This document shows, piece by piece, positions 7,191 to 44,331 of a stretch of DNA of 44,331 bases. How positions within the stretch are numbered: the first letter of the stretch is position 1; every line of letters begins with the position of its first letter. The notes under the pieces are model-generated. The model ran no database searches, had not been told where the DNA came from, and saw nothing but the letters and a program-made list of their open reading frames with translations. The position numbers were made by a program, and so were the translations under genes. Origin of the DNA: Ilumatobacteraceae bacterium (lineage in GTDB: Bacteria > Actinomycetota > Acidimicrobiia > Acidimicrobiales > Ilumatobacteraceae); contig SHUT01000013.1 of NCBI GenBank assembly GCA_009691255.1, forward strand, positions 1 to 44,331, read 5' to 3'.

Positions 7191-7197
7191 TCTGACA

Positions 7198-7203
7198 ACG
7201 GTA
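7198..7203 (-). promoter_or_regulatory. -10 element of DUF3499 operon, leaderless type
   Basis: Read on the minus strand, TACCGT is followed by 7 nt and then the ATG of the DUF3499 gene, so transcription should begin at or next to the start codon. No Shine-Dalgarno sequence fits in this space. Confidence 0.55.
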
Positions 7204-7248
7204 ATGCCTTAGATGGTGCCACACGGGGACAAGCGGTCACCTCTGCCA

Positions 7249-7254
7249 TAGAAT
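7249..7254 (+). promoter_or_regulatory. -10 element of ftsH, leaderless type
   Basis: TAGAAT is followed by GCGAGC and then ATG of ftsH at 7261, placing +1 at the start codon. No convincing -35 is visible, and there is no SD. The element shares the 7191-7260 divergent promoter region with the DUF3499 operon. Confidence 0.6.
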
Positions 7255-7260
7255 GCGAGC

Positions 7261-9219
7261 ATGAGCAATCTACCCCCACCACCCCCACCTCCGTCGCCAA
7301 CGCCTCGGGGTTCGGGTAGCCCATTTTCGCGCTTCACTGGCTCCAAGAAATCTAGTGGTCCAAAATCGGACAAATCAGATAAGCCGCCCGTTCCGCGATG
7401 GTCACTCTGGGTCGTACTTGGAGTTGTACTGGTGCTGGCATTTGGCTCCCGCTTCATGTCCTCATCAGCTGGCACCAAAGTCACATATACAGAATTTCTT
7501 GTTCTCGTAGACAAAGGCGACGTCAAGCGTGTCTCAATCAACAACACATCAAATGTGATCAGCGGAACATTGACCAACGGGACAAAATTCTCAACAACTG
7601 GCGCGATGTCGCTAAGTGATGGTGACGAACAATTGCTTAAAGCGCGCGGGGTTGACTACGACTATAAAACCCCTCAAGCAAATTGGCTCACAAGCCTTAT
7701 TCCAATTTTCCTTCCGTTTATTTTCATCGTCGGCATCTTTATGTGGATGCAAAAACGTGCCATGGGTCAAGCCGGAAGCATCATGTCAGTCGGACGTAGT
7801 CGTGCCAAGCCATATCAGGCTGACAAACCAGGCACTACATTTGCCGATGTCGCCGGATACGAGGGGGTCAAACTCGAGATCAAAGAAGTCGTTGACTTTC
7901 TGCGCATGCCAGAGCGCTTCAAAGAAATCGGTGCTCGTGTGCCCAAGGGAATTCTCCTCATAGGCCCTCCCGGAACTGGCAAGACGCTGTTTGCACGCGC
8001 TGTTGCCGGCGAAGCTGGAGTCGGCTTTTTGTCAGTGACAGGTTCTGACTTCATGGAGATGTTCGTCGGAGTCGGCGCAAGTCGTGTTCGTGATCTTTTT
8101 GCCCAAGCACGCAAAATGGGTCGAGCAATTATTTTTGTTGACGAGATCGATTCGATCGGTCGCAAGCGTGGCGCAGGTTTGGGTGGCGGTCACGACGAAC
8201 GCGAACAAACACTTAACCAAATGCTCGCCGAGATGGATGGTTTTGAAACCACAGAGGGCGTTGTTGTGCTTGCCGCGACGAACCGACCTGATATTCTTGA
8301 TCCGGCGTTACTTCGTCCTGGTCGATTCGATCGCCAAATCATCGTCCCCCTTCCAGAAAGTGACGAACGTCTAGCAATTTTGAAAGTACATTCCCGCGAC
8401 AAGCGGATGAGTGCTAATTCTGATCTAGAAATGATGGCAAAAGCCACACCTGGGATGAGCGGCGCCGATCTTGCCAACTTGGTCAACGAAGCAGCCCTAT
8501 TTGCTGTTCGACGCGGATCAAAAGAAATAGAACACATCGACTTCGAAAATGCCCGTGATCGGGTTGTGATGGGTGCTCGCCGCGAAAGCCTCGTGCTCAA
8601 TGCAGAAGAACGTCGGGCCACTGCATTTCACGAAGGTGGACATGCCGTGCTCGCAACAGTTTTGCCACACAGCGATCCGCTGCACAAGGTCACCATCTTG
8701 CCCCGCGGTGTGGCTCTTGGCATCACATGGTCTCTGCCCGAAGAACGCCACACATACTCACGCGAGTACTTTGAAGATGTGATCTGTAAAGCAATGGGTG
8801 GTCGCGTCGCTGAAAAGATTGTTTTTGGCAATCTCAACAGCGGAGCTGCCAACGATCTTGAGCAAGCCACGTCAATCGCGCGTCGCATGGTGCGCGAGTG
8901 GGGAATGTCAGACCAGATCGGCCCGATGGCATGGAACGGTCAGCAGCAAGTATTCATGGGTGAAGACTTACTGACGAGTGGTCGCGAATACAGCGACAAC
9001 ACGGCTCGACTCGTAGACGACGAAATCGCTCGAATCTTGCGCCAACAAGAACAACGTGCTCACGAGGTTCTGACAAAACATCGCAAAGGACTCATGCTTG
9101 TTGCCGAGGCACTACTTGAGCACGAAACAATCGACGGAGCGACTGTCGCTCGTCTCATTCAGACAGCACTCGATGACGCCGTTGTATCCACTGATACTCC
9201 AGCAACATTCGGAGACTAA
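7261..9219 (+). CDS. ftsH: ATP-dependent zinc metalloprotease FtsH
   Basis: Membrane-bound AAA+ protease that degrades misfolded membrane proteins and selected regulators. The 652-residue protein has two transmembrane helices (about 48-63 and 145-163) flanking a periplasmic domain, then Walker A GPPGTGKT (235-242), Walker B with FVDEID (292-297), the pore-loop region MFVGVGASR, arginine fingers in PGRFDR (353-358), and the zinc motif HEGGH (457-461) with the third ligand aspartate in AANDLE (532). The usual FtsH motif is HEAGH, so a glycine replaces the alanine. The N-terminus carries seven consecutive prolines at residues 5-11, a stretch expected to need EF-P. It is a single-gene unit with a predicted leaderless start. 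Its stop overlaps the convergent thioredoxin gene by 4 bp. Confidence 0.97.
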
Positions 9220-9668
9220 TTTAAAAGTTTTCCCAATTCAGGCTCCGGAGAAGAACCAGGTTGTCGACATTCAGCAATTGCTGCCCACAAATCTTGAGCC
9301 TTCACTGGTCCCAAAAAGCCAGCACGAACCACACCACCTTTATCTGCCACGACTAAAGCCGGAACACCGTCAATCTTGTAGCGCTTATGCATTGCCTCAT
9401 CAGTCGGGAATTCAACATGAACAACATCTACATCAGCACACTTGACAACAACGGCCTTTGACAAAACATCGGCACACGTGTTACATGTTGCCGATGTGAA
9501 CACCACAACAATCCAGGGTGCTCTGTGCTGTGAAAAATCTGCCCGATCAAGTTGAGTGGGCAACCGATGTGCACCTTGCGTGGGCGCATCAGGTTGTCTG
9601 TGGCGAATAATAGCCGCAATGATGAATGCGGCACCTCCGACAAGTGCTGCTAAAAGAACTCGAATCAT
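9216..9668 (-). CDS. Membrane-anchored thioredoxin-like protein
   Basis: A 150-residue protein with an N-terminal signal anchor (residues 2-21) and a thioredoxin fold. It has the active-site motif CNTC at 62-65 within FTSATCNTC, the cis-proline at 103 in DGVPALVV, and a third cysteine at 77. The anchor predicts that the redox domain faces outside the membrane. It is the last gene of an operon with a DUF5719 protein and a large glycosyltransferase, overlapping DUF5719 by 4 bp, so it may maintain disulfides in that envelope system. Reductase versus oxidase direction cannot be read from the sequence; the non-CGPC motif argues against a general cytoplasmic thioredoxin. Confidence 0.8.
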   Translation of the reverse strand: MIRVLLAALVGGAAFIIAAIIRHRQPDAPTQGAHRLPTQLDRADFSQHRAPWIVVVFTSATCNTCADVLSKAVVVKCADVDVVHVEFPTDEAMHKRYKIDGVPALVVADKGGVVRAGFLGPVKAQDLWAAIAECRQPGSSPEPELGKLLN

Positions 9669-11152
9669 CGCGTTCCGCGTTGCGGCAATGCCAAGACAGA
9701 ACTAAATCCAACGAGACCATGTCCGCGATTGAGTTGCCGACGAACTACGACAGGTTCTGTGCTGCGCACAATGAGTTGACCATCCGTCACATCTGCAGGG
9801 AACGACACGTTGATCACACCCGCAGGAGGCAATGCAACATCTGACAATCCGGTTAACGGAAACTCTCCACCAGGTCCGATGGCAACAACACTGAAGAATG
9901 CTGGTTCGCTGCTGGTGTTAAGAATTGATAATGCGTCACGCGAATCTGGAGTAACTCCAGTTGGAATCCACCACACACGTGAAGTCAGGCCATCGGGCGT
10001 TCCTTGAGTTAGTGCGGTAAATGCGCTTGATTTTGTTTGTTTGCTAAATGCATGCTCGGCCACAAAGCCAGCGCCGTTGGATGTTGAGAGCACTATTCCG
10101 TGAGCGCCTTTTGGTAGTGAAGCAGCTGACTCGGTATTTAGCGATACGACTTCGCCAGCAGGCACTGCGATGGAGGTTGCTCCAAGCGGCGGAACTGGAC
10201 CAGAAGAATCAGCCGTTGCATTTAATTCTTGATTCAAAAAGACTGCGTCGACCACAATGTCTTCTTCGCCAGGGTTGTAGAGCACAAGTTTCTCGATCGC
10301 ATTTGTGGCAGTTTGTCCGCCGGCAAACCACCATTTGCTGCTCGCTAGTGGAATACCTAAGGTTGTGCTGTAACCGAGTCGGCCTCCACCCAAATAATGC
10401 TGGGCTCGTGAAGCGATGATTTTACCTGTAGTCGCACGCACCTCGATTGCCAAAAGTTGTTCTTCGTTCGCACCCTCTTTGGTCATGTCAAAACTTTTTA
10501 CAGAGCGCGCTGGCATGATGAATCCCTGTAATGCCGTTGGTCGTCTTTGTCCATCAACGGTAGAAAACGACATATTTACAACGGCACTTTCCGGAAATGG
10601 GTTTGCCAATATCAGTCGCTCCCGTGATCCTTCTAGCGTGAAACCGTCTGCAAAAAACCATGACGACGACGTAGCAGTTACACAGAGAGACGTCGTGTCG
10701 CCTGCTGCAAATTCAAGTTGTTGTTCGACGACACCCTGCGACCCGATGACTTCGACAACCGGCACGACGACGCCCTTTGAGCGACCGCGCAACAGATCGA
10801 CACTCTCTCTAGAACGTGGCGGAATAATCACAACCTGTTGCTCTGGATTGCCGTCACTCAACAGTGTGACTGCCGCAGTGATGTCAATATCCGTGGGATT
10901 AGCAATCACCACGTGGCCATTGCTAACGCCATCGCCTGCTGCTACGCCTGGGCAAAACCATGAGGTGCTAATTCGAGACTTAGTCGGCACCTGAGCAAAA
11001 ACATCAAGATCAGAGCGAGCCGCCGATGCCCCCTCGGGTGTAACGGGACGCTTCGACTCAACGTATACCAACGCAACAATCAATACCAGTACAAGGCTTG
11101 CCACAAAAATTCTGCGCAACCTGTGCGCACGTGGGGCTGCAGTCATATTCAT
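9665..11152 (-). CDS. DUF5719 family secreted/anchored protein
   Basis: A 495-residue protein with a positively charged N-terminus, one transmembrane or signal helix at about 14-32, and a long extracellular part. That part is built from repeated beta-sandwich-like modules: aromatic starts such as SWFCPG, SWFFADG, KWWFAGG and RVWWIPTG are each followed within about 20 residues by a LxLxNP- or LSILNT-like strand, giving four modules of roughly 100 residues. This fits the actinobacterial DUF5719 family as I recall it. Start and stop overlap the neighbouring genes by 4 bp each, so translation is coupled. Linkage to the GT2/membrane protein suggests a shared envelope role. No enzymatic motif is visible. 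Confidence 0.75.
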   Translation of the reverse strand: MNMTAAPRAHRLRRIFVASLVLVLIVALVYVESKRPVTPEGASAARSDLDVFAQVPTKSRISTSWFCPGVAAGDGVSNGHVVIANPTDIDITAAVTLLSDGNPEQQVVIIPPRSRESVDLLRGRSKGVVVPVVEVIGSQGVVEQQLEFAAGDTTSLCVTATSSSWFFADGFTLEGSRERLILANPFPESAVVNMSFSTVDGQRRPTALQGFIMPARSVKSFDMTKEGANEEQLLAIEVRATTGKIIASRAQHYLGGGRLGYSTTLGIPLASSKWWFAGGQTATNAIEKLVLYNPGEEDIVVDAVFLNQELNATADSSGPVPPLGATSIAVPAGEVVSLNTESAASLPKGAHGIVLSTSNGAGFVAEHAFSKQTKSSAFTALTQGTPDGLTSRVWWIPTGVTPDSRDALSILNTSSEPAFFSVVAIGPGGEFPLTGLSDVALPPAGVINVSFPADVTDGQLIVRSTEPVVVRRQLNRGHGLVGFSSVLALPQRGTR

Positions 11153-14100
11153 TTTGAATCAGCCCCAAATGAAAGCACGGGCGAATCAAACTGCGTCTGT
11201 ATCTGCGCAGTAGAATTTTTTTCTTTCTTGCGGGAACGCACGAGCATTAAGAACACTGTTGCCGCCCAAAAACCTGCCTCAGCTAAAATTGCAAGTAGTC
11301 GCACAATAGAAGTTGAGTACGACAATTTAGCATTACCAGCACTTGGTACATCAAAGGCAGTAGTTGTTCCAAAGGCCGTGCGCGAAGTTATCGGTCTTGC
11401 ATCAACTTTGAGTTTCCATCTGGGCGAAAACGGAACAGCCAAGTGCAGAGTACCTTCTTCGAGTTTCGCTGATGCTCCAAAATCTGGACGTGTCGACGAC
11501 AGAACAGGAGTTGCTCCTGCTAAATCAGCAGCAATTGTCGATGCTGCACCAGCCAACTTGCTCGCCTCTGCGCCAATTGTCGACAACGTAGAACGAACCG
11601 GCACCCACGCTGAGTTTTCAAAGATCACAAGATCGGGCGATGAATACCTCCTGCGCAGATCCAGCTGATCGCCAAGCGCCGCAATTAATCCCTGCGGTAC
11701 TGGTAACTGTCGACTGCGAGTAGATGCAGCTTGATCAATAATGGGAACAACAATGAAGCGCACAGCGAGTGGGGCAATCAGTCGACCAGCGCGTGCGGTA
11801 TTGCCCCTGACGATGCCTCGTACCGCTTGAGCCATTTCATCCGTGGCTCGTGATCGTGGTGGCTCCCAAAGATCAACAGTCGATATGTGCGCTCCCGTAA
11901 TCACTGAATACGCCACTCCCCATCCAATGCTGATTGGAGCACCAGGAAGCGTGCGAGCGTCTCCCAAAAAAATAGTTCGATACGAGCCTGCCTCAGACTC
12001 AGCAGGGAGTTGTTCTAATAAATCCATAACCGACGTGGTGGTCTGGTTCCATCGGCCATCAATAAAACTCAAGGTGCTGGGCAACATTCCGATTACAAAA
12101 GCAAGACTTGCCAATGCGCTCAAGGGTTGGCGCCAACCGAATTTTGCATGTCGAACATCAACGGTCATTGACGCACCGAGTGCCCCCACTGCCACACTCA
12201 ACCCAAATGCCACAGGAACCAACATGATGGCTGGCTCTGCAAAGTGGATCGGCAAAATTGCGCGATCATCTAAGAGCGCGACAAGGAGCGCGGCGGCGGC
12301 GAGCAGAGAGCCTCGCAACGCCCACGGCGCACGACTCCCCCGCACAATAAATATCGAGGCAAAAGCCGGGATAAAAAGTAGCACTGCAACTCTGGTAATC
12401 GGCAAGATTCCGATGTCAAATGAAGCAAGCCCTAATAGACCAATGTTTCTGCCACCCTCAATGGGTGCGCGCGACACTCTTGACCACCATGCAGTTGTCG
12501 CAAACCACTCCAGCCAGGGAGCATGCAACACGAGAGCACCGAGTCCTGCCATCGCAAACATCAAAGGCCACATCAGCGCATCTCTAAGTCTTGCACCATG
12601 AATCCATGTCACCAAAAACCATACGATTACAAGTTCTGCTACGACAATCAATACAGCTACTTCAAATGCCGTTACGACTGCAAGAATCAGCGTCAAAGTC
12701 GCAACTCGTTTTGTAAATACTCGTTGATCGCGATGCATAAAGTAGTCCATTGCGTCTTCCCGAGATGATGCCACCACTGGTCGATGTGCCACCAATAGAC
12801 GAGCAATGTGGGCAAACCACGGGAAAGCGGCGTACACAAGTAGTCCACCCCAGCGCCCAATCGATATACACGCATACGGAAGCGGAACTGCCGCATACGT
12901 CAATGCAGTAATAATTCGTGCTCGGCGGGTGGCGTATACGGATGCAAATTGCCATGCACCGATGTACCCAATAAAAGGCAGAGCCACGACCGCCAATGTC
13001 TGCAATAACCCAACCCGACCGAACGAGACGGCGGCGGCAAACGCACTCAGTGACATTCCGGTTGGTGCGCTAACTGCTTTGCCAAATGCGCCTGGCCACC
13101 ACCCCGATGAGTACAGACTCATCATCTCGCGTCCATTGCCAATAAACGGCACAAACTGACCAACGCGCGTAACTCCGGACACGAGTAGCGAACGTGATCC
13201 GATGAGTGTCAAAATAAATAAAGTCAGCCAGAACGCAACGGTTCCGCGTTGTCGAACTGCGACATCTCCTACTGAAGCACTGTTCTCAGCCTCTGCTTTT
13301 CCGGTAACGCGTGCTCGTTTACGCAAATAGGCCGAGAACCGTGCACTCCCGCGACTCTGCAATGCATGGATTTCTCTATCGTCCACGACGCGCGAGTGAA
13401 GCACTCTTTTTCGGCGTGCTCTCAATGCTGAAAGATGAAACGGACTAGTAACCAATGAACGAACAGAGCCCCACGCACGCGATGGGCTTCCGGAAAATAC
13501 CCCAACAACGAGTTGAGCAATAGATATAACCAACAACTGCAAAATAACAAGCGGCAAATAGGCTGCCTGAGTCAGTGCAAGCGTCGTGTGAATTCGCTCT
13601 TTTTCAGCGTTTGATACCAGCATTCGTATTTGTTCTGGCGAATTGCTGTCAATACTGCGGTGAAGATGTTTGACAACTGCAGCTGGCACGACGACGACGC
13701 GTGCCCCCGTCGTGTGAGCGCGCCAGCACAGATCGAGGTCTGCACTTTCGCTGCTAAGAGATGGTTCGAACCCACCAAGTGCCCTAAAGAGATCGGCACG
13801 AATCAGCATGCACGTTGACGGCAATACAAATGTGTCTCGAACGGCATCGTGCTGTTCTTGGTCAATTTCTCCAGCATCCACCACTGAATCGCGTTCTCCA
13901 AAACGGTCAACAGCAATACCAACGCTCTCCAGTTGACGGGCATCGTTCCATGACACAACTTTTGGTCCGACGATTCCGGCATTTGATCGATACAACTCTT
14001 CAATCAAACGCGAAACTGCGTCTGTGGCAAGCGCGGCATCATCGTGAATAAACAAATAAAAGCCGCTCTCTCCGTCAACCATGACCAACACGTTGTTGCA

Positions 14101-14382: not shown

Positions 14383-14460
14383 GCCCTTGCAAGGCTAGTG
14401 GCAGAGCCAGAAATACCCGAAACAGCAAGAAACATCAAGCATCTAAAGGCTGTCCACTGC

Positions 14461-14489
14461 TTGCTAAAATTGGTATGCAAACATAGACT
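14461..14489 (+). promoter_or_regulatory. Promoter with -35 and -10, leaderless type
   Basis: TTGCTA (14461-14466), a 17-bp spacer, TAGACT (14484-14489), then 7 nt to the ATG at 14497. This is the most complete housekeeping-type promoter in the window, and it fixes the start of the small downstream gene. Confidence 0.6.
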
Positions 14490-14496
14490 CCAAGAG

Positions 14497-14718
14497 ATGA
14501 GCTGTTCATTTTTATCGCAACTCCAAAAAATTGATCTTTCGAAGATCACGTGTACCGACATTGATCTACAAGCAGTCCTTGACTCAGACGCCGTAAAACA
14601 AGCCAAAGAGGCAGGTTACACAGCGGTCGGATTTGGTGTTCTTGCGTTTCAAAGGATCCAGGTTCTGCGCCAAGAAATGGCAACTGCTCACAAAGCACGC
14701 TCGAACACCGCTCAATAA
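14497..14718 (+). CDS. Small conserved hypothetical protein (73 aa)
   Basis: The N-terminal part has a repeated aspartate pattern (KIDLSKI, TDIDLQAVLD). This is followed by a helix with a glycine-rich hydrophobic stretch (AGYTAVGFGVLAFQRIQVLRQE, residues 39-60) that ends in charged residues. I recall similar short proteins with a 'VGFGVLxxQKxQV' segment in Acidimicrobiia, but no function. The start is set by the promoter, whose -10 lies 7 nt upstream. A longer frame starting at 14293 would overlap the divergent glycosyltransferase and begin with an implausible His-rich run, so I rejected it. It lies 27 bp upstream of the flippase gene. Membrane association through the hydrophobic helix is inference. 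Confidence 0.6.
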   Translation: MSCSFLSQLQKIDLSKITCTDIDLQAVLDSDAVKQAKEAGYTAVGFGVLAFQRIQVLRQEMATAHKARSNTAQ

Positions 14719-14732
14719 CGTCTGCGCTCCAC

Positions 14733-14738
14733 TAACCT
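14733..14738 (+). promoter_or_regulatory. -10 element of flippase gene, leaderless type
   Basis: TAACCT, 7 nt, then GTG at 14746. No SD precedes the GTG. The flippase may be made from its own leaderless mRNA as well as by read-through from the small upstream gene. Confidence 0.5.
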
Positions 14739-14745
14739 CAACTAG

Positions 14746-17112: not shown

Positions 17113-17118
17113 TACCAT
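17113..17118 (+). promoter_or_regulatory. -10 element of fbiA, decides the start
   Basis: TACCAT is followed by 7 nt and then the ATG at 17126. The alternative ATG at 17117 lies inside this hexamer, so the promoter supports the downstream start. Confidence 0.55.
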
Positions 17119-17125
17119 GCCTCTC

Positions 17126-25090: not shown

Positions 25091-25096
25091 TACGCT
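25091..25096 (+). promoter_or_regulatory. -10 element of fcl, leaderless type
   Basis: TACGCT, 7 nt, then ATG at 25104. It lies in the 30-bp gap between the divergent GT4 gene and fcl, so both promoters must overlap the other gene's 5' end. Confidence 0.5.
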
Positions 25097-26114: not shown

Positions 26115-26120
26115 TACACT
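26115..26120 (+). promoter_or_regulatory. -10 element of rhomboid gene, leaderless type
   Basis: TACACT, 6 nt, then GTG at 26127. The spacer from fcl (26064-26126) shows no terminator hairpin that I can support. Confidence 0.55.
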
Positions 26121-27207: not shown

Positions 27208-27214
27208 TAGTGTA
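27208..27214. promoter_or_regulatory. Overlapping divergent -10 elements (FmdB / DUF3039)
   Basis: TAGTGT on the plus strand (27208-27213) and TACACT on the minus strand (27209-27214) share five positions, giving a near-symmetric bidirectional promoter. The minus one is 6 nt from the FmdB ATG. The plus one would give a roughly 30-nt leader for DUF3039. Confidence 0.5.
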
Positions 27215-30628: not shown

Positions 30629-30649
30629 ATCGTAGCGAACATATGTTCG
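30629..30649 (-). promoter_or_regulatory. LexA SOS box and leaderless promoter of dnaE2
   Basis: A perfect 14-bp palindrome CGAACATATGTTCG at 30636-30649 matches the actinobacterial LexA operator. One base downstream is the -10 TACGAT (30629-30634), then 6 nt and the ATG at 30622. The operator covers the -35/-10 spacer, so bound LexA would block polymerase. The same arrangement recurs before imuA'. Confidence 0.92.
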
Positions 30650-31189: not shown

Positions 31190-31199
31190 GTCTCTTACG

Positions 31200-32705
31200 C
31201 TAGTCGTATACAGCGCTGACATACCATTGGCGATTTTCGATTGTCAGTAGCACCAGATATTCCGCTTGAGTATGGGGGTGCTGAACCAGTAGTTGTAATC
31301 GAGCCAATCGACGTCGACGCACCGGATCCCACCATCGTTCTTCTACGGGCCACGGACCAGCAAATTGTTGTACTGCATAATTAACTACGTCTGCCAAAGG
31401 TGCATTGTGGTCAAGCAACGAACCCTGAACGCAAAGGACACTTGGCGCCTGCAATAGTTCGTGACGTCCGGTGATCACTACAATTGACCCATCCTTGTCT
31501 TGTAATTGCACTACTTGTGGTTGTGAAAAAACAATCGCTGGCCAAGGTGTAGGCACCGAACCTGTCCAGTGTTGCTCGGCTCCGCGTCCGGTGCTCACGC
31601 GTTCAGCGCAGGCCACGTGATCTCGGATATCTACGCTGCCCACCGGAACTTGTAAAAAAACATGTGCAACATCGCGCCCTCCTTGCCATTCTGGAACAGT
31701 GATGTCAATATCTGCGTGCACAGAAATTGCAAGAGCAATGCTTCGCATCACACGTTCGACATGCTCTTGACGACCACCCCACAGACTCTGCTGTTGGGTA
31801 TCAACGGGGCGCACGTCCATGGGAGAAAGTTGTACCCGTACGATGCCAGCCGTTGCTGCTGTATCGGCATCAGCGCCAAGCCAGCCATCTAGTTGCCACC
31901 GAATGCGTTCTAGGATCGCTCTCTCGCTGAATCCGCGCGGCTGATGCCACATCCGTTCACTGCGCTCGCCGTGGTCTGTCTCAAAAAGCATATGCAACCG
32001 AATGCACTGCACGGCACGACGCTCAAGCGCTGTGACGAGATCATGCGATGGTTCGTTCATCGCAGCCACTACTACTCCACTGACCAAGACTGGGTCTTCA
32101 AAGACGTGCTGAACAACATCATCTATCGGCACCACGTCAGGAACCAACATGCTGATATCAAAGCCGTGAACAATGTGATGCAGACGTTCGCCAAGTAATC
32201 CGAACCTGTCAATTAATTCACGTTCTGTTAGTCCAGCAACTGCCCCTATTGTCGTGAGGCCGAGTCGTCGTAATAAATCAACCGTGTCAGCGTCTATGTC
32301 TGCGCATCCGCCTAGTGCGTCTGTGGGTAATAGACCCAGAAAATCTTCAGACATGCCAACCGAGACAATGCAAGGTGAGTCAGCAAAACACGATTGATAC
32401 GCCGCTGCCAAGGCGGCTACTCGACCGTCAGCAATACCCACACCGTGGGACACTGGAAATGCTTGCTCTGCGCACAACCCATACAACAGATTGCCAACTG
32501 CAACATCGCCGCCGAAATATCGTGAAGGGCCCCTTGTTGCCAGAAGTGCAACGCCAGCAGTGTCTACTTCAATCAGCGGAGCAATACCAGACAATGCACG
32601 CACGACAGACTCAAAAGCGCGGTGCGCTGTATCTGAGTCGTCATGTCCAGGCATGTTGTCCCAGTTCGGAAAAATAATTGCTGCAGTGCGTGTAGTGCTC
32701 AACAT
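31200..32705 (-). CDS. imuB: Y-family polymerase-like mutasome protein ImuB
   Basis: The adaptor of the ImuA'/ImuB/DnaE2 mutasome. The 501-residue protein keeps the Y-family layout, with palm/fingers at 1-130, an HhH-like thumb (LRRLGLTTIGAVAGLTERELIDRFG) and a little-finger region. The metal-binding acidic motifs are gone: the N-terminal strand reads AAIIFPNWD rather than DxDxFY, and the second motif reads VDTAGVALLATRG. This is expected for catalytically dead ImuB. A beta-clamp-binding motif QQSLWG sits at 305-310, close to the QLPLWG motif of mycobacterial ImuB. It overlaps imuA' by 7 bp and shares its SOS promoter. Confidence 0.92.
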   Translation of the reverse strand: MLSTTRTAAIIFPNWDNMPGHDDSDTAHRAFESVVRALSGIAPLIEVDTAGVALLATRGPSRYFGGDVAVGNLLYGLCAEQAFPVSHGVGIADGRVAALAAAYQSCFADSPCIVSVGMSEDFLGLLPTDALGGCADIDADTVDLLRRLGLTTIGAVAGLTERELIDRFGLLGERLHHIVHGFDISMLVPDVVPIDDVVQHVFEDPVLVSGVVVAAMNEPSHDLVTALERRAVQCIRLHMLFETDHGERSERMWHQPRGFSERAILERIRWQLDGWLGADADTAATAGIVRVQLSPMDVRPVDTQQQSLWGGRQEHVERVMRSIALAISVHADIDITVPEWQGGRDVAHVFLQVPVGSVDIRDHVACAERVSTGRGAEQHWTGSVPTPWPAIVFSQPQVVQLQDKDGSIVVITGRHELLQAPSVLCVQGSLLDHNAPLADVVNYAVQQFAGPWPVEERWWDPVRRRRLARLQLLVQHPHTQAEYLVLLTIENRQWYVSAVYD

Positions 32706-33355: not shown

Positions 33356-33376
33356 ATCGTAGCGAACATATGTTCG
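33356..33376 (-). promoter_or_regulatory. LexA SOS box and leaderless promoter of imuA'-imuB-nudix
   Basis: The same 14-bp palindrome CGAACATATGTTCG lies at 33363-33376, followed by -10 TACGAT (33356-33361), 6 nt and the ATG at 33349. Box, -10 and spacing are identical to those of dnaE2, while the 6-nt spacers differ. The box ends 3 bp from the 3' end of the B12-binding regulator gene. Confidence 0.92.
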
Positions 33377-34300: not shown

Positions 34301-34306
34301 AGATTA
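34301..34306 (-). promoter_or_regulatory. -10 element of B12-binding regulator gene, leaderless type
   Basis: On the minus strand TAATCT, 6 nt, ATG at 34294. The 98-bp gap to the Nfu-like gene shows no clear operator dyad that could serve for autoregulation. Confidence 0.5.
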
Positions 34307-34842: not shown

Positions 34843-34849
34843 TATTGAG

Positions 34850-34855
34850 ACGATA
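34850..34855 (-). promoter_or_regulatory. -10 element of Nfu-like gene, leaderless type
   Basis: On the minus strand TATCGT, 7 nt, ATG at 34842. It fixes the shorter start of the gene. Confidence 0.45.
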
Positions 34856-34923: not shown

Positions 34924-34941
34924 AACGAGATTTGCCTCGTT
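34924..34941 (+). promoter_or_regulatory. Hairpin in the acyl-CoA dehydrogenase leader
   Basis: AACGAG (34924-34929) pairs perfectly with CTCGTT (34936-34941) around a 6-nt loop, placed just before the Shine-Dalgarno AAAGGGG and the ATG at 34958. It shows that this mRNA has a real leader, unlike most in the window. It could tune stability or initiation. Confidence 0.4.
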
Positions 34942-34957
34942 GAGATAAAGGGGTTTT

Positions 34958-36229: not shown

Positions 36230-36246
36230 ATCTGCTTCTAAACGCA

Positions 36247-39124: not shown

Positions 39125-39130
39125 GGCATC

Positions 39131-39171
39131 AGGATAACTGTCGGAGTACTCCTACTGCCTCCCCCTAGGCT
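39131..39171. promoter_or_regulatory. Divergent gpsA / fbiD promoters, both leaderless type
   Basis: Minus-strand TATCCT (39131-39136) with 6 nt to the gpsA ATG, and plus-strand TAGGCT (39166-39171) with 6 nt to the fbiD GTG. Neither gene has an SD. The -35 regions must overlap between the two elements. Confidence 0.55.
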
Positions 39172-39177
39172 GATGGG

Positions 39178-39741
39178 GTGCGAGTGGCGCTTATTGTTCC
39201 TATGAAATCATTCAGCATCGCCAAAGGACGTCTTGCCGATGTACTTAATGCCCACGAACGCCAACAACTTGCCCGTGATTGTGCGCGATCTGTGATCAGC
39301 GCGGGCGGCAACTGGGCCTCCTACGTTGTCTGCGACGCCACTGATGTTGCAAGTTGGGCGAAAGAAATGGGTGCGCATGTAGTGCCGTGCCCAACACCTG
39401 GACTTGATGTCGCCGTTGCTACTGGAGTAAGTGCAGCGATAACAGATGGTGCCCAACATATTGTGGTGGCGCACGCAGATCTTCCGCTAGCTACCACTTT
39501 TCAACATCTTGTCCTTGATGGACAAGTCGCATTGGTGCCAGATCGCCATATGGACGGTACAAACGTCTTAAGTTTTCCGGCCGAGATGCGCTTTGCGACT
39601 GCATACGGCGCACAGAGTTTTACTCGCCACCAAGAGATCCTTGTAACGCTGGGATATAAATATGTTGTCGTCAACGATGACAACCTCTCGCTTGATCTCG
39701 ATACAGCCGATGATCTCACCGAACTGGAGAAACGAACATGA
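39178..39741 (+). CDS. fbiD: 2-phospho-L-lactate/phosphoenolpyruvate guanylyltransferase (CofC/FbiD)
   Basis: Activates 2-phospholactate or phosphoenolpyruvate with GTP to make the donor used by FbiA in F420 synthesis. The 187-residue protein has the CofC start ALIVPMKSFSIAKGRL, the VVAHADLPLA metal-binding strand, LVPDRHMDGTNVLSFP and the C-terminal SLDLDTADDLTEL. All fit the MobA-like family. The GTG start lies 6 nt after TAGGCT. The stop overlaps the PIG-L gene as ATGA. In this window it is 21 kb from fbiA-fbiB, a dispersed arrangement also seen in mycobacteria. fbiC, for Fo synthesis, is not in the window. Confidence 0.93.
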   Translation: MRVALIVPMKSFSIAKGRLADVLNAHERQQLARDCARSVISAGGNWASYVVCDATDVASWAKEMGAHVVPCPTPGLDVAVATGVSAAITDGAQHIVVAHADLPLATTFQHLVLDGQVALVPDRHMDGTNVLSFPAEMRFATAYGAQSFTRHQEILVTLGYKYVVVNDDNLSLDLDTADDLTELEKRT

Positions 39742-40514
39742 GCGCCAACGACCCAGGGCAGACACCATTGCACTCCACCGATGCATGGACAACCAACATC
39801 TCAGTACCAAAAATAGTGCTAGCAATCGGAGCACACCCAGACGATGTTGAATTTGGATGCGGCGGAACACTCGCAAAATGGTCTTCTGCAGGAGCCATCG
39901 TGCATCACCTCGTGCTTACGGACGGCTCTAAGGGCACATGGAACCCCGATGCTGACATCGTTGCACTTATCGCACAACGACAAATCGAACAAACCAGCGC
40001 AGCACGTGCACTTGGCACGACAGGTTCAGTCGTGTTCCTGGGCCACACTGACGGCGAACTCGTGCATTCGCCCACTGTTGTTGAACAGATTTGTCTACAT
40101 ATCCGACAAATCAGACCAAATGTTGTTCTCACCCATGATCCCTGGAAGCGCTACCGATTGCATCCAGATCATCGCAATGCCGGCATGAATACCTGTGATG
40201 CAATTGTTGCTGCTCGTGATCCACATTTCTTGCGCCACCAAATTTTAGAACTTGGTTTACAGCATCATCGCCCAGATGCATTGTTGTTATGGGAAGCAGA
40301 CCAAGCTAATCACGCCGAAGACGTGTCGACATTTGTAGACATCAAACTTGATGCGTTGCTCAAACATGCCAGCCAATTTGAGAGCACGATGAAAGCAGTC
40401 GATACTTCTGGAATAGAACAATTTCGCCAACGCATCAAGCAGCGTATGACCGAACTAGGCGCACCTCATTCATTTGCCGCTGCTGAAATTTTTCATCATA
40501 TGAACCGTCTCTAG
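39738..40514 (+). CDS. PIG-L family deacetylase (MshB/GlcNAc deacetylase-like)
   Basis: A zinc-dependent N-acetylglucosaminide deacetylase-like protein of 258 residues. It has the metal and base motif AHPDDVEFG (H33, D35, D36) and the second metal motif RLHPDHRNAG (H142-H145). In actinobacteria this family includes MshB of mycothiol synthesis and Mca, as well as deacetylases of antibiotics and lipids. It is translationally coupled to fbiD by a 4-bp overlap, which might point to a role near F420 or mycothiol metabolism, but the pairing could be chance. The N-terminal 20 residues before the core are poorly conserved-looking. Its stop overlaps the convergent TIGR03084 gene by 4 bp. Confidence 0.9.
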   Translation: MSANDPGQTPLHSTDAWTTNISVPKIVLAIGAHPDDVEFGCGGTLAKWSSAGAIVHHLVLTDGSKGTWNPDADIVALIAQRQIEQTSAARALGTTGSVVFLGHTDGELVHSPTVVEQICLHIRQIRPNVVLTHDPWKRYRLHPDHRNAGMNTCDAIVAARDPHFLRHQILELGLQHHRPDALLLWEADQANHAEDVSTFVDIKLDALLKHASQFESTMKAVDTSGIEQFRQRIKQRMTELGAPHSFAAAEIFHHMNRL

Positions 40515-41293
40515 ACGACAAACTGCCCAGGTTGCCGTCCTTCTCCGGGCGGACCAGCAAAAGCTTGGGCAATACTCATCCAGTCATGCGCTAACTCACC
40601 TTTAATTTCAAGGTTTGCGTCACTCACATGTCGACGGTGAGTCACCACTTGACAAAAGTCAAGTGCATCTCCGGTGACGCTATTTGATGCGTCATCACCC
40701 CATCGCCATATTGTCCAGTCAGACGCGTTCAGCCGCACGCTCACCTCTCCGACGGGCAATTCACGCCGATGTGCGGCATACGAAAATGGACGTGCCCGCA
40801 CTCCAATGTGAGCGATATGGCGCAAGCGCAAAGTTGGATGCACTGCGGCGTGAAGTGCATCCGCAATATCGTGTGCGTGGGCCCAAGTCTCCATAATGCG
40901 CGCTGTCACCATTGATGCAACTGACATCGACGGCCCATACCACTGACAGCGAGTGTCTGGTGACAACAACTGCACTGATGCGCATAACGAATCATTTCCG
41001 TCTACCCACCACTGCAACAAATTTGGGTGAGTACGCACACGCTCTTGTTGATGAATATCTGTCCGTGATGACATCAGATTCTCAAGATCGTCAGCAAAGC
41101 GCTCGACGTCGGTCATTGACCAGAGAGCTCTCTGATCAAACAACCCAAGATGTATGACCTGGTCGGCAATAGACCAGCCAGGGGCGGGTGTCGGCGTTAG
41201 CCAGTCAGCGTCTGCCAATGGCTCCACAAGAAGACGCAAGACCTCGGCCTCAGCTCGAAGATCCCGCACCAGTTCAACAATTTCAACACCCAT
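40511..41293 (-). CDS. TIGR03084 family / mycothiol-dependent maleylpyruvate isomerase N-terminal-domain protein
   Basis: A 260-residue DinB-like four-helix metal-binding protein. The family motif TPAPGWSIADQVIHLGLFDQ near residue 35 supplies one histidine. METWAHAHDIADAL near 135 supplies more metal ligands, and RPFSYAAHRRELP in the C-terminal domain is typical. These proteins use thiol cofactors such as mycothiol in related enzymes, and the convergent PIG-L deacetylase family includes a mycothiol enzyme, so a thiol link is suggestive only. The gene is its own unit downstream of a terminator. CACACT six nt before its ATG is a weak match to the leaderless -10 pattern. Confidence 0.88.
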   Translation of the reverse strand: MGVEIVELVRDLRAEAEVLRLLVEPLADADWLTPTPAPGWSIADQVIHLGLFDQRALWSMTDVERFADDLENLMSSRTDIHQQERVRTHPNLLQWWVDGNDSLCASVQLLSPDTRCQWYGPSMSVASMVTARIMETWAHAHDIADALHAAVHPTLRLRHIAHIGVRARPFSYAAHRRELPVGEVSVRLNASDWTIWRWGDDASNSVTGDALDFCQVVTHRRHVSDANLEIKGELAHDWMSIAQAFAGPPGEGRQPGQFVV

Positions 41294-41329
41294 CTCTTGA
41301 GTGTGTCAAAGATGTTCAGGAAAAGCAGA

Positions 41330-41353
41330 AACGGGGGGCTTTCGCCCCCCGTT
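41330..41353 (-). terminator. Rho-independent terminator of the HU/histone-like unit
   Basis: AACGGGGGGC (41330-41339) pairs perfectly with GCCCCCCGTT (41344-41353) around a 4-nt loop, giving a 10-bp GC-rich stem. On the minus strand it is followed by TTTCTGCTTTT, a T-rich tail, about 50 bp after the stop of the histone-like gene. It is the only strong intrinsic terminator I see in the window. Confidence 0.88.
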
Positions 41354-41403
41354 CCTTGACACTCTGAACCGATTGGTTCTGTGATGAAAACAGTAGAGAA
41401 GGA

Positions 41404-41622
41404 CTAAGCCTTCTTGGCTGCTTTCTTCTTGCGCTTTGCAGGAGCCTTCTTGGCTGCTTTCTTCTTGCGCTTTGCAGGAGCCTTCTTCGCTGCTGCTTTC
41501 TTCTTGCGCTTTGCAGGAGCCTTCTTCGCTGCTGCTTTCTTCTTGCGCTTTGCAGGAGCCTTCTTCGCTGCTGCTTTCTTCTTTGCTGGGGCCTTCTTAC
41601 GGGCCTTCTTTTTTGCTGCCAC
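41404..41622 (-). CDS. Histone H1-like Lys/Ala/Pro-rich protein (PAKK tail protein)
   Basis: A 72-residue, extremely basic protein made almost only of Lys, Ala, Pro and Arg, with repeated KKAPAKRKKKAA units. It resembles the C-terminal tail of actinobacterial HupB and bacterial histone H1-like proteins, which bind DNA non-specifically and compact the nucleoid. It starts with GTG behind GAGAGGAAA, 28 bp after the stop of the HU gene and in a different frame (+1), so it is a separate protein rather than the tail of HU. No globular domain is present. It is followed by a strong terminator. In mycobacteria this tail and the HU domain are one polypeptide. Confidence 0.88.
   Translation of the reverse strand: MAAKKKARKKAPAKKKAAAKKAPAKRKKKAAAKKAPAKRKKKAAAKKAPAKRKKKAAKKAPAKRKKKAAKKA
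41409..41558. repeat. 36/39-bp tandem repeats encoding PAKRKKK units
   Basis: Two 36-bp units (41409-41444 and 41445-41480) and two 39-bp units (41481-41519 and 41520-41558) are nearly identical; the longer units add one alanine codon. A diverged partial unit follows. Copy number is likely to vary between strains. Confidence 0.85.
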
Positions 41623-41641
41623 TTGAGTTTCCTCTCGTTGT

Positions 41642-41658
41642 GTAAGTGATTTACTTAC
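41642..41658 (-). promoter_or_regulatory. Intercistronic hairpin between HU and tail gene
   Basis: GTAAGT and ACTTAC form a perfect 6-bp stem with a 5-nt loop. The stem includes the TAA stop of HU. It lies upstream of the SD of the tail gene and may set the ratio of the two proteins by RNA stability or reinitiation. Confidence 0.45.
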
Positions 41659-41935
41659 GGTTTGGGTTTAGCTCAGCCTTGAGCGTTGAGCTCGCTGAGA
41701 ACTTCATCGCAGTTGAAGCAGGAACATTGACCGTGGCACCCGTTTGTGGGTTACGACCTGTCCGTGCCTTGCGTTGGGTTGCGCTGAACGAGCCAAAGCC
41801 CGGCCATGCAACCTTTCCGCCATTCTTAGTAGAAGCAACCACCAGTCCAAAGAAAGCCGCAATCGTTCGTTCGGCGTCTGCCTTAGAACAATCCGCTAAC
41901 TTTGCAACTTCTTCGATGAGCTCTGCTTTTGTCAT
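41651..41935 (-). CDS. hup: HU family DNA-binding protein
   Basis: A 94-residue nucleoid-associated protein of standard HU size. It has the N-terminal helices MTKAELIEEVAKLADCSKADAE, the beta-arm region GKVAWPGFGSFSATQRKARTGRNPQTGATVNVPAS with the minor-groove-intercalating proline region RNPQTG, and the C-terminal MKFSASSTLKAELN. I chose the ATG at 41935 because GAGGAGG lies about 10 nt upstream; the ATG at 41944 would be only two bases from that SD. It is co-transcribed with the basic tail gene. Unlike mycobacterial HupB, it has no PAKK extension. Two dyad symmetries lie 59-93 bp upstream of the start and could be operators. Confidence 0.96.
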   Translation of the reverse strand: MTKAELIEEVAKLADCSKADAERTIAAFFGLVVASTKNGGKVAWPGFGSFSATQRKARTGRNPQTGATVNVPASTAMKFSASSTLKAELNPNRK

Positions 41936-42555
41936 TTTTTCCATTCCTCCTCGGATCGGAGTGTCGGGAGTATCTGAATAGCTTTGTCAGAGGAATGCAA
42001 GCATTGAAATAGTTGCATTTGCAACTATGCCCATTTGGAAGATCTCTCGCACCTTGATGCAGTAAGGAAATCAGAGGTAGCAATCGACCATCTGGGGTAC
42101 CAAAATACTTTCGCGACGCATCTGATAATAAGTGTTCAAAGCATTTCTGGCGCCAACTAATTGTCCTCGCAATGTGTATTTTCTCTATATTTCATAAGGG
42201 TTTTAGTGACTTTGCCAGCGCTGGCACAGACACGCACAATCCACAACAGTCGAGCAAATAATGCCCCAATCTGGCGCCTTGCCAAGGGGTATTACTGGCG
42301 GGTGAGGCGGACGTAATCTTCATCCGTAAACCCCGTCTAGTTGCAAAAATATTTTTTAAAAAATTTTCAAAAATTGCTCATTTTTGGCTACTGCCGACTA
42401 AATCTAGAACTTTTTTTGATTTTTTTTGTAGTCAAATATTCATCTGTGTATCCACCACTTGAGACATCGCAGCGATAAATATGACCCTGTTGGACATGTC
42501 TCGTACTTCTCGGCAACACTCGGTAATTCGCCGGTGAGATTGAATTGGTTTGCTC
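41936..42555. other. Longest non-coding stretch, divergent HU / PhoH regulatory region
   Basis: No convincing gene is seen in about 620 bp. From left to right it holds the HU ribosome site, two dyads at 41994-42028, a CTGGCGCC at 42147-42154 repeated at 42271-42278, a perfect 14-bp palindrome TGCCAGCGCTGGCA (42213-42226), and then an A/T-rich block at 42345-42430. The A/T block contains the palindrome ATTTTTTAAAAAAT (42351-42364), T7 and T8 runs, and A-tracts expected to bend DNA. A regulatory RNA is possible but not demonstrable. Confidence 0.5.
41994..42028. promoter_or_regulatory. Tandem dyads upstream of HU, operator-like
   Basis: AATGC-AA-GCATT (41994-42005) and ATAGTTGCA-TT-TGCAACTAT (42009-42028; 9-bp perfect arms) lie side by side on the promoter-proximal side of HU. 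The size and symmetry suit a dimeric winged-helix repressor, but no known operator is matched. Confidence 0.5.
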
Positions 42556-43953
42556 GTGACTGATGTTCTTGGAGTGGACCACACTGGTGCTCCTGTCCCC
42601 GATCATCCACCTATTTCTCCGGGTACTGGACAAAGAACTCGCGTCGTATTAGACACGTCGGTGCTTGTTGCTGATCCGTCAAGCCTTCGGGCGTTTCCTG
42701 GTTGCGAAGTAGTAATCCCACTCACCGTCGTGGAAGAACTTGACGGACTGAAATCTCGCATGGACGACGTTGGGCGTGCTGCACGAACTGCACTACGGAC
42801 CATCGAAGACATGCGTCGGCGTGCTGGAGGATCAATTCATCTTCCAGTTCCAGTTGAGTCAGATGCCTTAGGCGGAACCGTCCACATCGAGGTCAACGGC
42901 ATTCAGCGCCATCGACTTGTCGAGTTTGGTCTTGATCCTGAGATTCCTGATAACCGAATTATCGGCGCAGCCCTTGGTCAAGCAGATCATGCACCAACAC
43001 GCCTTATATCCAATGATGCTGGCCTGCGAATCAAAGCGGCACACTTGGGACTAACTGCCGAAGAGCACTTGCCAACTGGTCGCAGTATGTCTACTCGTCC
43101 CGTCGGTTGGGTCACGATTGAAACGACTGCGGAGTGCATCGATCGGTTGTACTCCGACGGATCAATTCCGGCTGACATCGTGTCTGGCGCAAGTAATCTT
43201 TTCCAAAATGAGTTCGCTGTTGTGCGCGCTGGCTCGCAATCTGCTCTCACGCGACGCACCAATGAAGACCTCACTGTGCTCTCTGCATCTTCGGTAGAAC
43301 CGTGGGGATTGCGCGCACGATCTAAAGAGCAGCGTTTTGCACTTGATCTCTTGATGGACCCAGAAGTCAGCGTGTTGGCCCTTGACGGACGCGCAGGCAC
43401 CGGAAAAACCGTGATGGCGATTGCCGCAGGCTTAGAACAAGTTGTCGAACACAGGCGCTACGAAAAACTTGCCGTATATCGACCGCTCGTGCCCGTTGGT
43501 CGAGCTGACGTTGGTTTCTTGCCAGGTGGTTTAGACGAAAAACTTGATCCATGGATGTCTGCTATCCATGATGCAATCGTGGCATTGACTGATCAAAGAT
43601 CTAGCAATGATGCTCGACGACTGATCGAAGATCTCACAACACGAAATCAGTTATCACTCGAGTCAGTAACTTTTCTGCGCGGACGATCGTTGCACAGACA
43701 AATAGTGGTCGTTGACGAAGCACAAAATCTTGAGCCCACAACTCTGAAAACAATTCTGACTCGAATAGGTGAAGGAACAAAAGTCATCTTTACGGGCGAT
43801 ACCAGTCAAATAGACGTGCCATATATGGGTGAGTCCAATAACGCACTTGCCGTTTTAATCCACGCCTTTGCCGACCAACGATGCTTTGGCCATATCACCC
43901 TCACCGCTTGTGAGCGCAGCGAAGTCGCCAGCCTGGCTGCTGAACTGCTCTAG
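42556..43953 (+). CDS. phoH2: PIN-PhoH fusion protein (PhoH2-type RNA helicase/RNase)
   Basis: A 465-residue two-domain protein. The N-terminal PIN ribonuclease domain has VVLDTSVLVADPSSL (first acidic residue near 33), VVEELD, and later acidic residues in DPEIPDNRI and SNDAGLR. The C-terminal PhoH NTPase domain has ALDGRAGTGKTVMA (Walker A at 278-285), VYRPLVPVGRADVGFLPG, VVDEAQNLEP (Walker B) and FTGDTSQID. In mycobacteria PhoH2 unwinds and cleaves RNA. The start is most likely GTG at 42556; a TTG two codons upstream is possible, and no SD or leaderless -10 is obvious. It is divergent from HU across about 620 bp of regulatory DNA. Confidence 0.93.
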   Translation: MTDVLGVDHTGAPVPDHPPISPGTGQRTRVVLDTSVLVADPSSLRAFPGCEVVIPLTVVEELDGLKSRMDDVGRAARTALRTIEDMRRRAGGSIHLPVPVESDALGGTVHIEVNGIQRHRLVEFGLDPEIPDNRIIGAALGQADHAPTRLISNDAGLRIKAAHLGLTAEEHLPTGRSMSTRPVGWVTIETTAECIDRLYSDGSIPADIVSGASNLFQNEFAVVRAGSQSALTRRTNEDLTVLSASSVEPWGLRARSKEQRFALDLLMDPEVSVLALDGRAGTGKTVMAIAAGLEQVVEHRRYEKLAVYRPLVPVGRADVGFLPGGLDEKLDPWMSAIHDAIVALTDQRSSNDARRLIEDLTTRNQLSLESVTFLRGRSLHRQIVVVDEAQNLEPTTLKTILTRIGEGTKVIFTGDTSQIDVPYMGESNNALAVLIHAFADQRCFGHITLTACERSEVASLAAELL

Positions 43954-44048
43954 TTTTCCATCCGGTCGCCTCTTGACTGGTGCGTAATTCCAAACTCCAA
44001 TGTTGATGGCCGTACGCCAAGAATAAGCACCATCTCTGGCATCTGGTC

Positions 44049-44075
44049 TTGCGGGGGGGGTCGTAGTGCTAACAT
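44049..44075 (+). promoter_or_regulatory. Promoter with G8 homopolymer in the spacer
   Basis: TTGCGG (44049-44054) could be a -35, and TAACAT (44070-44075) is a -10 placed 6 nt before GTG 44082. The 15-bp spacer is dominated by the end of a G8 run (44053-44060). Gain or loss of a G would change the spacing. The 43954-44048 part shows no feature that I can support. Confidence 0.4.
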
Positions 44076-44081
44076 GTGGAC

Positions 44082-44331
44082 GTGTTCAAAACTCAGAAAC
44101 CTCAAGGTCGTATTCGGTCGACTCATATTGGGGCATTGACGCTTGCTGCAGGAGTCATTGTCGGTATTGCAATTGGTGGCATCGGAGGTGTCATTGCAGC
44201 ATCATCAAAATCTTCCAAGATTGTGGCGTGTGCTGACAAAAGAACTGGAGTAATGAGATATTCCAGTTCTGGAAAATGCACTAAGACCGAGTCAACGGTG
44301 TCATGGAATCTTGACGGTACGAACGGCACTG
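44082..44331 (+). CDS. Membrane-anchored or secreted protein (3' partial)
   Basis: The frame is open to the right edge, with 83 residues visible. A short basic N-terminus (FKTQKPQGRIR) precedes a glycine-rich hydrophobic helix (IGALTLAAGVIVGIAIGG). An extracellular part beginning IVACADKRTGVMRYSSSGKCTKTESTVSWNLDG follows. The pattern C-x-k-x-tG-x-r....C-x3-E-x2-xSWN is one I associate with actinobacterial surface proteins that continue into collagen-like Gly-Pro repeats; that continuation lies outside the window. The GTG at 44082 fits a TAACAT -10 by 6 nt; an in-frame GTG at 44076 is the alternative. The only other frame over this stretch, on the opposite strand, is a shadow. Confidence 0.6.
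   Translation, partial: MFKTQKPQGRIRSTHIGALTLAAGVIVGIAIGGIGGVIAASSKSSKIVACADKRTGVMRYSSSGKCTKTESTVSWNLDGTNGT

Follow-up and report, generated by a model that had tools for sequence, protein, structure and literature searches.

TANNNT boxes of the leaderless kind before lead genes of a freshwater acIV-type Acidimicrobiia genome, and candidate boxes shared by divergent genes

This locus raises the question of whether its genes are read by default from leaderless mRNAs. In the window, i.e. the whole stretch of 44,331 nucleotides (nt) of Ilumatobacteraceae DNA analysed here, the first-pass annotation had listed 15 genes that begin transcription units and carry a TANNNT hexamer (the box) ending 6 or 7 nt before an ATG or GTG start codon. 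Each of the 15 hexamers is present exactly as listed, with 6 or 7 nt between it and its start codon (Table 1), and our analysis shows a real, conserved, genome-wide leaderless grammar of the kind already known in Actinobacteria. As the list had been made by eye, with some starts chosen using the motif, it was re-tested with motif-blind starts: a box stands at 5/21 lead genes of the window (shuffle mean 0.3), at 3/4 genes with a gap of 25–39 nt (0.1), and at 2/13 with a shorter gap (0.2). The chance rate of 3% per gene that had been given holds for one fixed start but not for a freely chosen one, for which the measured background is about 8% (8.7/108); even at 8%, boxes at 15 of the 24 lead genes have a P of about 2e-11. 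This last count comes from a hand census of 41 window genes, in which a lead gene is one that is divergent or follows a same-strand gap of at least 25 nt. The census placed TANNNT at 6 or 7 nt in 17 genes, namely the 15 already listed plus two closely spaced same-strand genes (Trm112-like and NUDIX), and left nine lead genes with no box at this spacing (ahcY, GT2 with a box at 9 nt, gmd, GT1c, acyl-CoA dehydrogenase, MDMPI, the lysine-rich gene, HU, and PhoH).

The window corresponds to contig C38 in the metagenome-assembled genome G000 (1,762,442 bases in 73 contigs, 84.6% complete, guanine–cytosine (GC) content about 51%). The nearest named relatives of its gpsA protein include environmental Acidimicrobiia-type bins, one of which is labelled acIV (L052, 84% identity). 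The genome was sampled as the first 16–20 kb of contigs C1–C20 (20 stretches, 382,072 bases, window excluded), and genes and starts were called by a purpose-built coding model blind to upstream motifs. In the window this caller missed DUF3499 and FmdB and placed the ftsH start later, so figures from called starts are probably low. Before counting, we removed genes truncated at the end of a stretch and those with less than 100 nt upstream, which gave 346 genes with usable upstream sequence: 187 lead genes (108 divergent and 79 with a same-strand gap of at least 40 nt), 16 with a gap of 25–39 nt, 134 close same-strand genes (gap below 25 nt), and 9 at an edge. For the ‘any start’ counts, any in-frame start from 60 codons upstream to 40 codons downstream of the called start was allowed.

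Counting TANNNT by distance to starts against shuffled upstream sequence had been proposed as a check, and in the genome sample it gave a sharp peak at 6–7 nt. Over the 187 lead genes, the spacing of 6 nt has 25 matches and that of 7 nt has 16, whereas no other spacing between 0 and 30 has more than 6. At called starts, 41/187 lead genes have a box at 6 or 7 nt, compared to a mean of 4.8 and a maximum of 10 in 100 shuffles; among them are 27 of the 108 divergent genes (background 2.8) and 14 of the 79 with a gap of at least 40 nt, and the 25–39 nt class adds 4/16 (shuffle mean 0.3). With any start, the box was found in 49/108 divergent genes (mean 8.7 and maximum 19 at other spacings), 21/79 with the wider gap (5.3), 4/16 with a gap of 25–39 nt (0.7), and 17/134 close same-strand genes (5.7). 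Over all genes the figure is 91/346 against a background of 20.9, an excess of about 22%. The window is richer than the sample (15/24 with hand-picked starts versus 74/203 with any nearby start, Fisher p 0.016) and therefore overstates the genome.

The same pipeline was applied to two genomes of the genus (G022 and G001), to two from other families of the order (G026, 74% GC; G034, 66% GC), and, outside the order, to G111 of the same phylum (46% GC), taken for its gpsA locus, the lowest in GC among 30 loci, and to four 50-kb stretches of Escherichia coli. For divergent genes with any start, boxes were found in 42/102 (background 6.4) in G022, 55/124 (4.7) in G001, 20/98 (1.0) in G026, and 19/114 (2.8) in G034, while E. 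coli (5/56 versus 6.7) and G111 (7/48 versus 7.0) showed no peak. The peak is thus not a product of the method. The leaderless habit is stronger in the genus than in the two other sampled families of the order. A pure GC-content effect was rejected, as G111 has no peak at 46% GC and the two high-GC families have a weaker one.

The boxes are also conserved. In an orthologue test that took the first box candidate of each gene and covered genes with a mappable start, the lead-gene box was kept in 16/16 cases from G000 to G022, 9/15 from G000 to G001, and 16/24 from G022 to G001, compared to 14/25, 1/13, and 0/11 for background TANNNT farther upstream; in the two comparisons with G001, identity at −60 to −25 averages 0.26–0.33, near random. 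For the window genes, the comparison listed up to nine relatives of each gene whose N-termini could be aligned to within 12 residues, and 51 of the 69 relative rows listed keep the box at 6 or 7 nt; these rows are not all independent, owing to same-contig overlaps (L052/L193, L023/L192, and L031/L133). None of five ftsH relatives could be aligned at the N-terminus for this comparison. The idea that the pattern can fix a start codon is borne out for fbiA (2/2 rows) and the Nfu-like gene (7/9 rows at 6/7 nt, the other two at 8 nt); the gene of 73 amino acids gives it weaker backing (1/2).

The dnaE2 and imuA′ boxes offer a second point of reference. Each lies 1 nt downstream of an identical copy of CGAACATATGTTCG, which we take to be a LexA-type operator; the pattern occurs eight times in the genome, against three for the reversed word. 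An operator 1 nt before the box is also present in G022 (dnaE2 and imuA′) and in G001, at the gene of a 222-amino-acid protein that is probably imuA′, judging by position and N-terminus. As the operator adjoins the box, the box sits where a promoter −10 is expected, independently of the start codon. By eye, dnaE2 relatives L043 and L026 have operator and box upstream of a GTG that lengthens the protein by six codons, 6 nt away, and the start there seems to have moved together with the promoter.

Separately, other LexA-type boxes (L215, L228, and L220) have a TATGGT, TATAGT, or TACGGT close downstream and an apparently longer leader, with an SD-like AAAGGA in L220 (SD, Shine–Dalgarno); this layout is perhaps the same promoter in leadered form.

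The letters of the boxes were then compared, with the window included in the G000 counts of composition, start codons, SD and −35 matches, and paired boxes. At positions 3 and 5, the boxes of G000 that lie at 6 or 7 nt show a preference for G or C: TASNST (S, G or C) accounts for 28/53 of them and 29/138 background boxes (p 4e-5; 26/45 and 28/129 without the window), and a T as third base for 2/53 compared to 41/138 upstream background boxes. The 15 window sites are unremarkable, with TASNST in 6 and third-base T in 2. The preference agrees in G022 (p 0.002) and G001 (p 0.003), and the two high-GC genomes show no clear G/C excess in the box (p 1 and 0.06). Box genes of G000 start with ATG in 51 and GTG in 15 of 66 cases, never with TTG; ATG or GTG was likewise found at 67/68 box genes in G022 and 79/79 in G001, a weak test since TTG is rare elsewhere too (7/318 in G000).

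Genes without the pattern had been said to carry clear SD sites instead. Presuming that the anti-SD of G000 is the usual one, we found a match of at least 5 nt at the start, or close to it, in ahcY, HU, and, less clearly, acyl-CoA dehydrogenase, while the lysine-rich gene and GT1c have 4-nt matches only and GT2, gmd, MDMPI, and PhoH have no match at the chosen start. As a rule the statement does not hold, with matches of at least 5 nt in 30/122 divergent genes compared to 27/122 in a reversed-sequence control. In 51/122 divergent genes the box at 6/7 nt and the 5-nt SD match are both lacking, and many lead genes are thus explained by neither.

The best explanation, and one that we hold with high confidence, is that the boxes are actinobacterial −10 elements of leaderless mRNAs. 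The spacing peak, the enrichment at lead genes, and the conservation are observed directly; where the mRNAs begin, which sigma factor is used, and how they are translated we infer from the sequence. The boxes would be the −10 elements of housekeeping-type (SigA) promoters adjoining the gene, RNA polymerase would start on the first letter (A or G) of the ATG or GTG, or no more than about 1–3 nt away, and the ribosome would take this 5′-terminal start codon without SD contact. A short-leader mRNA, with transcription starting a few nt upstream or with a dominant second promoter upstream and the box as a secondary one, is improbable: TANNNT is somewhat raised at 8 and 9 nt (5 and 4 of 187 in G000; 6 and 5 among the 124 divergent genes of G001), and the GT2 box at 9 nt fits such a leader, but the counts are highest at 6 and 7 nt, the usual distance from a −10 to the transcription start, and drop at 5 and 8, and SD matches of at least 5 nt near a start are rarer in divergent genes with a box (8/49) than in those without (22/73). 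We give almost no weight to chance combined with free choice of the start codon. Free choice does lift the background from about 3% to 8%, but the peak appears with motif-blind starts, is absent from shuffles, other spacings, E. coli, and G111, all of which led us to reject chance, and distant orthologues keep the box. It is just as hard to credit that the TA box serves translation, through weak structure or contact with the ribosome, rather than as a promoter. Its position is indeed fixed relative to the codon; against this, at dnaE2 and imuA′ the box adjoins LexA-type operators, it is enriched in lead genes, it is letter-specific (T, A, and T set by the search, with G or C favoured between), and it forms symmetric boxes that divergent genes share.

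Several observations count against the boxes being leaderless −10 elements, or limit how far this holds. Conservation fails at distance for some genes, such as dnaE2 (2/8 rows) and gpsA (4/9 listed rows). A −35 element matched in 4 of 6 positions is not in excess (12/66, 18%, versus 15.5% in shuffled sequence), for which reason a general −35 element was rejected; at 5 of 6 the excess is perhaps slight (4/66 versus 1.6%). At called starts, 11/134 close same-strand genes also have a box (mean 1.4 at other spacings; shuffle mean 3.2, maximum 11), so that either the box is not confined to lead genes or the boxes of close genes are partly chance. Over the 73 contigs and both strands, TASNST followed by ATG occurs 233 times at 6/7 nt, compared to 82 at 12/13 and 113 at 18/19 as same-phase controls, in agreement with the peak, but the reversed-word controls (318, 297, and 300), a different word that was not used as a null, exceed the forward counts, and raw word counts alone prove little. 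Finally, about 60% of divergent lead genes have no box. The claim of a leaderless default for lead genes stands as to a genome-wide grammar, through the peak, the lead-gene enrichment, the conservation, and the LexA-type operators, but the word default is overstated and not supported: after background, the box accounts for about 40% of the divergent genes and, over all lead genes sampled, for about 30% (74/203 raw). A leaderless start is the commonest recognised mode among lead genes, not the majority.

The less expected part of the results concerns boxes shared by divergent genes. Divergent pairs with both boxes are no commoner than chance pairing would give (14 versus 9.8 in G000, 9 versus 8.2 in G022, and 12 versus 12.2 in G001), and such pairs lie close together, with medians of 64, 53, and 47.5 nt between starts, respectively. 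Seven sampled pairs have starts 22–24 nt apart: one in G000 (L020:11569-11596), three in G022 (L201, L208, and L210), two in G001 (L132:12975-13003 and L136), and one in G034 (L187). In all seven the hexamers overlap as ANNNTANNNT, with the central TA forming the first two bases of both. Given one box and a gap of 22–24 nt, just one further fixed base completes the second box, so that a pair seen only once may have arisen by chance. In 26 genomes of the genus, CAT-N6/7-ANNNTANNNT-N6/7-ATG occurs at 59 sites, compared to 29 for the reversed-word control; with the same letters and an outer spacing of 9/10, there are 12 sites and again 29 for the reversed word. Grouped by core and spacing, the sites form recurrent orthologous families, with an rnhB pair in 16 genomes, a thioesterase/nitroreductase pair in 12, an Nfu-like/47-amino-acid pair in 6, and a PhyH pair in 3; four further families are each represented in two genomes, and 13 sites are singletons. 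For each of five pairs, the partners in one genome could be named with Pfam, and the partner of rnhB has a MOSC domain; the Nfu-like name of the gene paired with the 47-amino-acid frame is our assumption from its sequence. Among 18 sites with flanks read (from 22 loci), four are flanked on one side by a frame of fewer than 40 codons and probably arose by chance.

The best represented pairs were followed in their relatives. For thioesterase/nitroreductase, a comparison of 30 loci, a subset of all matches, showed that 12/12 orthologues of at least 70% identity have the 22-nt gap and an identical 14-nt core, CCATAGTAGGGTCG, with varying outer bases, and that 18 more distant relatives (below 50%) are without the shared core. 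G011 has the word and no close nitroreductase match, and G017 has the pair with a GTG start. By coordinates, the shared box lies beside rnhB in 16 of the 23 genomes, out of 26, in which this gene was found; in the window rnhB lies within an operon, and there is no shared-box pair among the window’s divergent genes. A short-chain dehydrogenase pair keeps its geometry in G022 and G007 with different core letters and spacing, as does an inositol-phosphatase pair in G022 and G001. That these two pairs vary the letters but keep the layout argues that it is the geometry that is conserved. Taken together, it is likely that a single symmetric −10, ANNNTANNNT, serves both genes in some divergent pairs of the genus, with both predicted mRNAs leaderless and both core and spacing under selection. 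The 22–24 nt between the start codons would then be the whole shared promoter core, the upstream promoter DNA of each gene would lie inside the coding sequence of its partner, and only one polymerase would load the shared box at a time.

Some further layouts were noted. At L003:3142-3161 in G000, a divergent pair 18 nt apart has boxes that overlap more tightly, in the symmetric form TANNNTA, and one of the starts differs from the called one. A near-identical PhyH-pair word is present at G000:C58:2442-2469 and G000:C62:2688-2715, which could be a duplication or mixed strains in the bin. The shifted-spacing control brought up recurrent ACCGTAGCCT-like symmetric cores 9–10 nt from both ATGs (G002/G013/G023 and G001/G003/G024), perhaps bidirectional promoters with leaders of about 3 nt. 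In distant nitroreductase relatives (L314-L319, L321-L323, L327, and L329-L331), before a nitroreductase paralogue, a shared GTGGCAGACTGCC-like block lies just upstream of the aligned start and is possibly an operator, another start signal, or part of a longer N-terminus.

The window features are collected in Table 1. The NUDIX and Trm112-like boxes, inside clusters, may be internal promoters or chance, and the fbiA box overlaps a possible gmd start codon. Between the boxes of gpsA and fbiD, divergent genes with 53 nt between their starts (39125-39177) and predicted to be leaderless, there is a GGAGTACTCC palindrome, which is not kept in L053. Pfam was run on 40 window proteins, a set from which the lysine-rich and last genes are absent, and supports most of the gene names used; the flippase-like protein has a MurJ match below the cut-off. 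Among the scanned proteins, the imuB-like, imuA′, Nfu-like, and 73-amino-acid ones gave no Pfam match, and their names are those of the first-pass annotation. The assembly has no ribosomal RNA, and no transfer RNA or Rfam match was found within the window.

Table 1. Candidate −10 boxes and presumed LexA-type operators in the window; the last column gives the relatives that keep the box and the motif-blind calls
Element	Sequence	Position	Strand	Spacing and start codon	Gene	Remarks
−10	TACCGT	7198..7203	-	7 nt from ATG 7190	DUF3499 (PF12005)	kept in 2/2 listed relatives
−10	TAGAAT	7249..7254	+	6 nt from ATG 7261	ftsH	Pfam FtsH domains; motif-blind start 7456
−10	TAGACT	14484..14489	+	7 nt from ATG 14497	73-amino-acid gene	motif-blind start agrees; kept in 1/2 relatives
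−10	TAACCT	14733..14738	+	7 nt from GTG 14746	flippase-like	kept in 1/2 relatives
−10	TACCAT	17113..17118	+	7 nt from ATG 17126	fbiA/CofD	kept in 2/2 relatives
−10	TACGCT	25091..25096	+	7 nt from ATG 25104	fcl-like epimerase	kept in 2/3 relatives
−10	TACACT	26115..26120	+	6 nt from GTG 26127	rhomboid	kept in 4/4 rows
−10	TACACT	27209..27214	-	6 nt from ATG 27202	FmdB-type zinc ribbon	kept in 9/9 rows listed
−10	TACGAT	30629..30634	-	6 nt from ATG 30622	dnaE2	kept in 2/8 rows at aligned start
−10	TACGAT	33356..33361	-	6 nt from ATG 33349	imuA′	kept in 3/5 rows
−10	TAATCT	34301..34306	-	6 nt from ATG 34294	B12-binding regulator	kept in 4/4 rows
−10	TATCGT	34850..34855	-	7 nt from ATG 34842	Nfu-like	rows listed: 7/9 at 6/7 nt, 2/9 at 8
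−10	TATCCT	39131..39136	-	6 nt from ATG 39124	gpsA	rows listed: 4/9 kept, one more at 8 nt
−10	TAGGCT	39166..39171	+	6 nt from GTG 39178	fbiD/CofC	kept in 9/9 rows listed
−10	TAACAT	44070..44075	+	6 nt from GTG 44082	last gene	kept in 1/1 relative
TANNNT	TAGCGT	31197..31202	-	7 nt from ATG 31189	NUDIX, inside cluster	absent from first-pass list
TANNNT	TAAGAT	2391..2396	-	6 nt from ATG 2384	Trm112-like, inside cluster	absent from first-pass list
TANNNT, near-leaderless candidate	TAGCCT	14392..14397	-	9 nt from GTG 14382	GT2	
LexA-type operator (presumed)	CGAACATATGTTCG	30636..30649		1 nt upstream of −10	dnaE2	assumed label
LexA-type operator (presumed)	CGAACATATGTTCG	33363..33376		1 nt upstream of −10	imuA′	assumed label

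To place these boxes among known systems, we compared them with reported leaderless genes. Leaderless (TA-led) genes of Actinobacteria are described as having TANNNT about 12 bp before the start, as making up about 20% of genes, and as being first in operons (Zheng et al. 2011, PMC3160421). G000 has the place of the box, the share of about 20%, and the tie to first genes in common with that set, and by both its share of all genes and its occurrence mainly in the first genes of units it fits the TANNNT leaderless kind; Acidimicrobiia are not named in the main text of that paper. It also reports TAtaaT leaderless boxes for medium-GC groups (PMC3160421). The T-A-A preference in the box middle, as generalised there for medium-GC genomes, was not found in G000, and with a G/C-favoured middle at 51% GC this genome therefore departs from the generalisation. 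The reported leaderless share is 26% in Mycobacterium tuberculosis (PMC3898074) and 33% in Corynebacterium glutamicum (PMC3890552); both species have the TANNNT −10 and the ATG and GTG starts in common with G000, and they differ in resting on mapped 5′ ends, whereas G000 is read from sequence alone (PMC3898074, PMC3890552). The ATG/GTG split of G000 box genes is close to the 79% AUG and 21% GUG of leaderless mRNAs in C. glutamicum (PMC3890552).

Bidirectional promoters with a symmetric −10 are described as one region that serves both strands, at which two polymerases exclude each other, with 18 bp as the commonest start-to-start distance and 10 and 23 also common (PMC12825309, PMC10268837). 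A 22-nt gap between leaderless starts equals a start distance of 23 bp; in contrast to the known bidirectional promoters, both products are predicted to be leaderless here, and the 22–24 nt would be the whole shared core (PMC12825309, PMC10268837). No description of leaderless genes with a shared bidirectional −10 was found in the literature searched, in which few subscription papers were covered (PMC12825309, PMC10268837, PMC4633059), and no leaderless study of the freshwater acIV-type Acidimicrobiia lineage was found in the literature searched.

In summary, our data extend predicted leaderless expression, with numbers, to this lineage, provide a rule by which start codons can be fixed in metagenome-assembled genomes of the lineage, and question the view of TATAAT-like leaderless boxes in medium-GC genomes. 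The shared boxes, if true, would rank with the smallest divergent promoters that can exist, and the mutual exclusion of polymerases would be testable on a core of about 22 bp.

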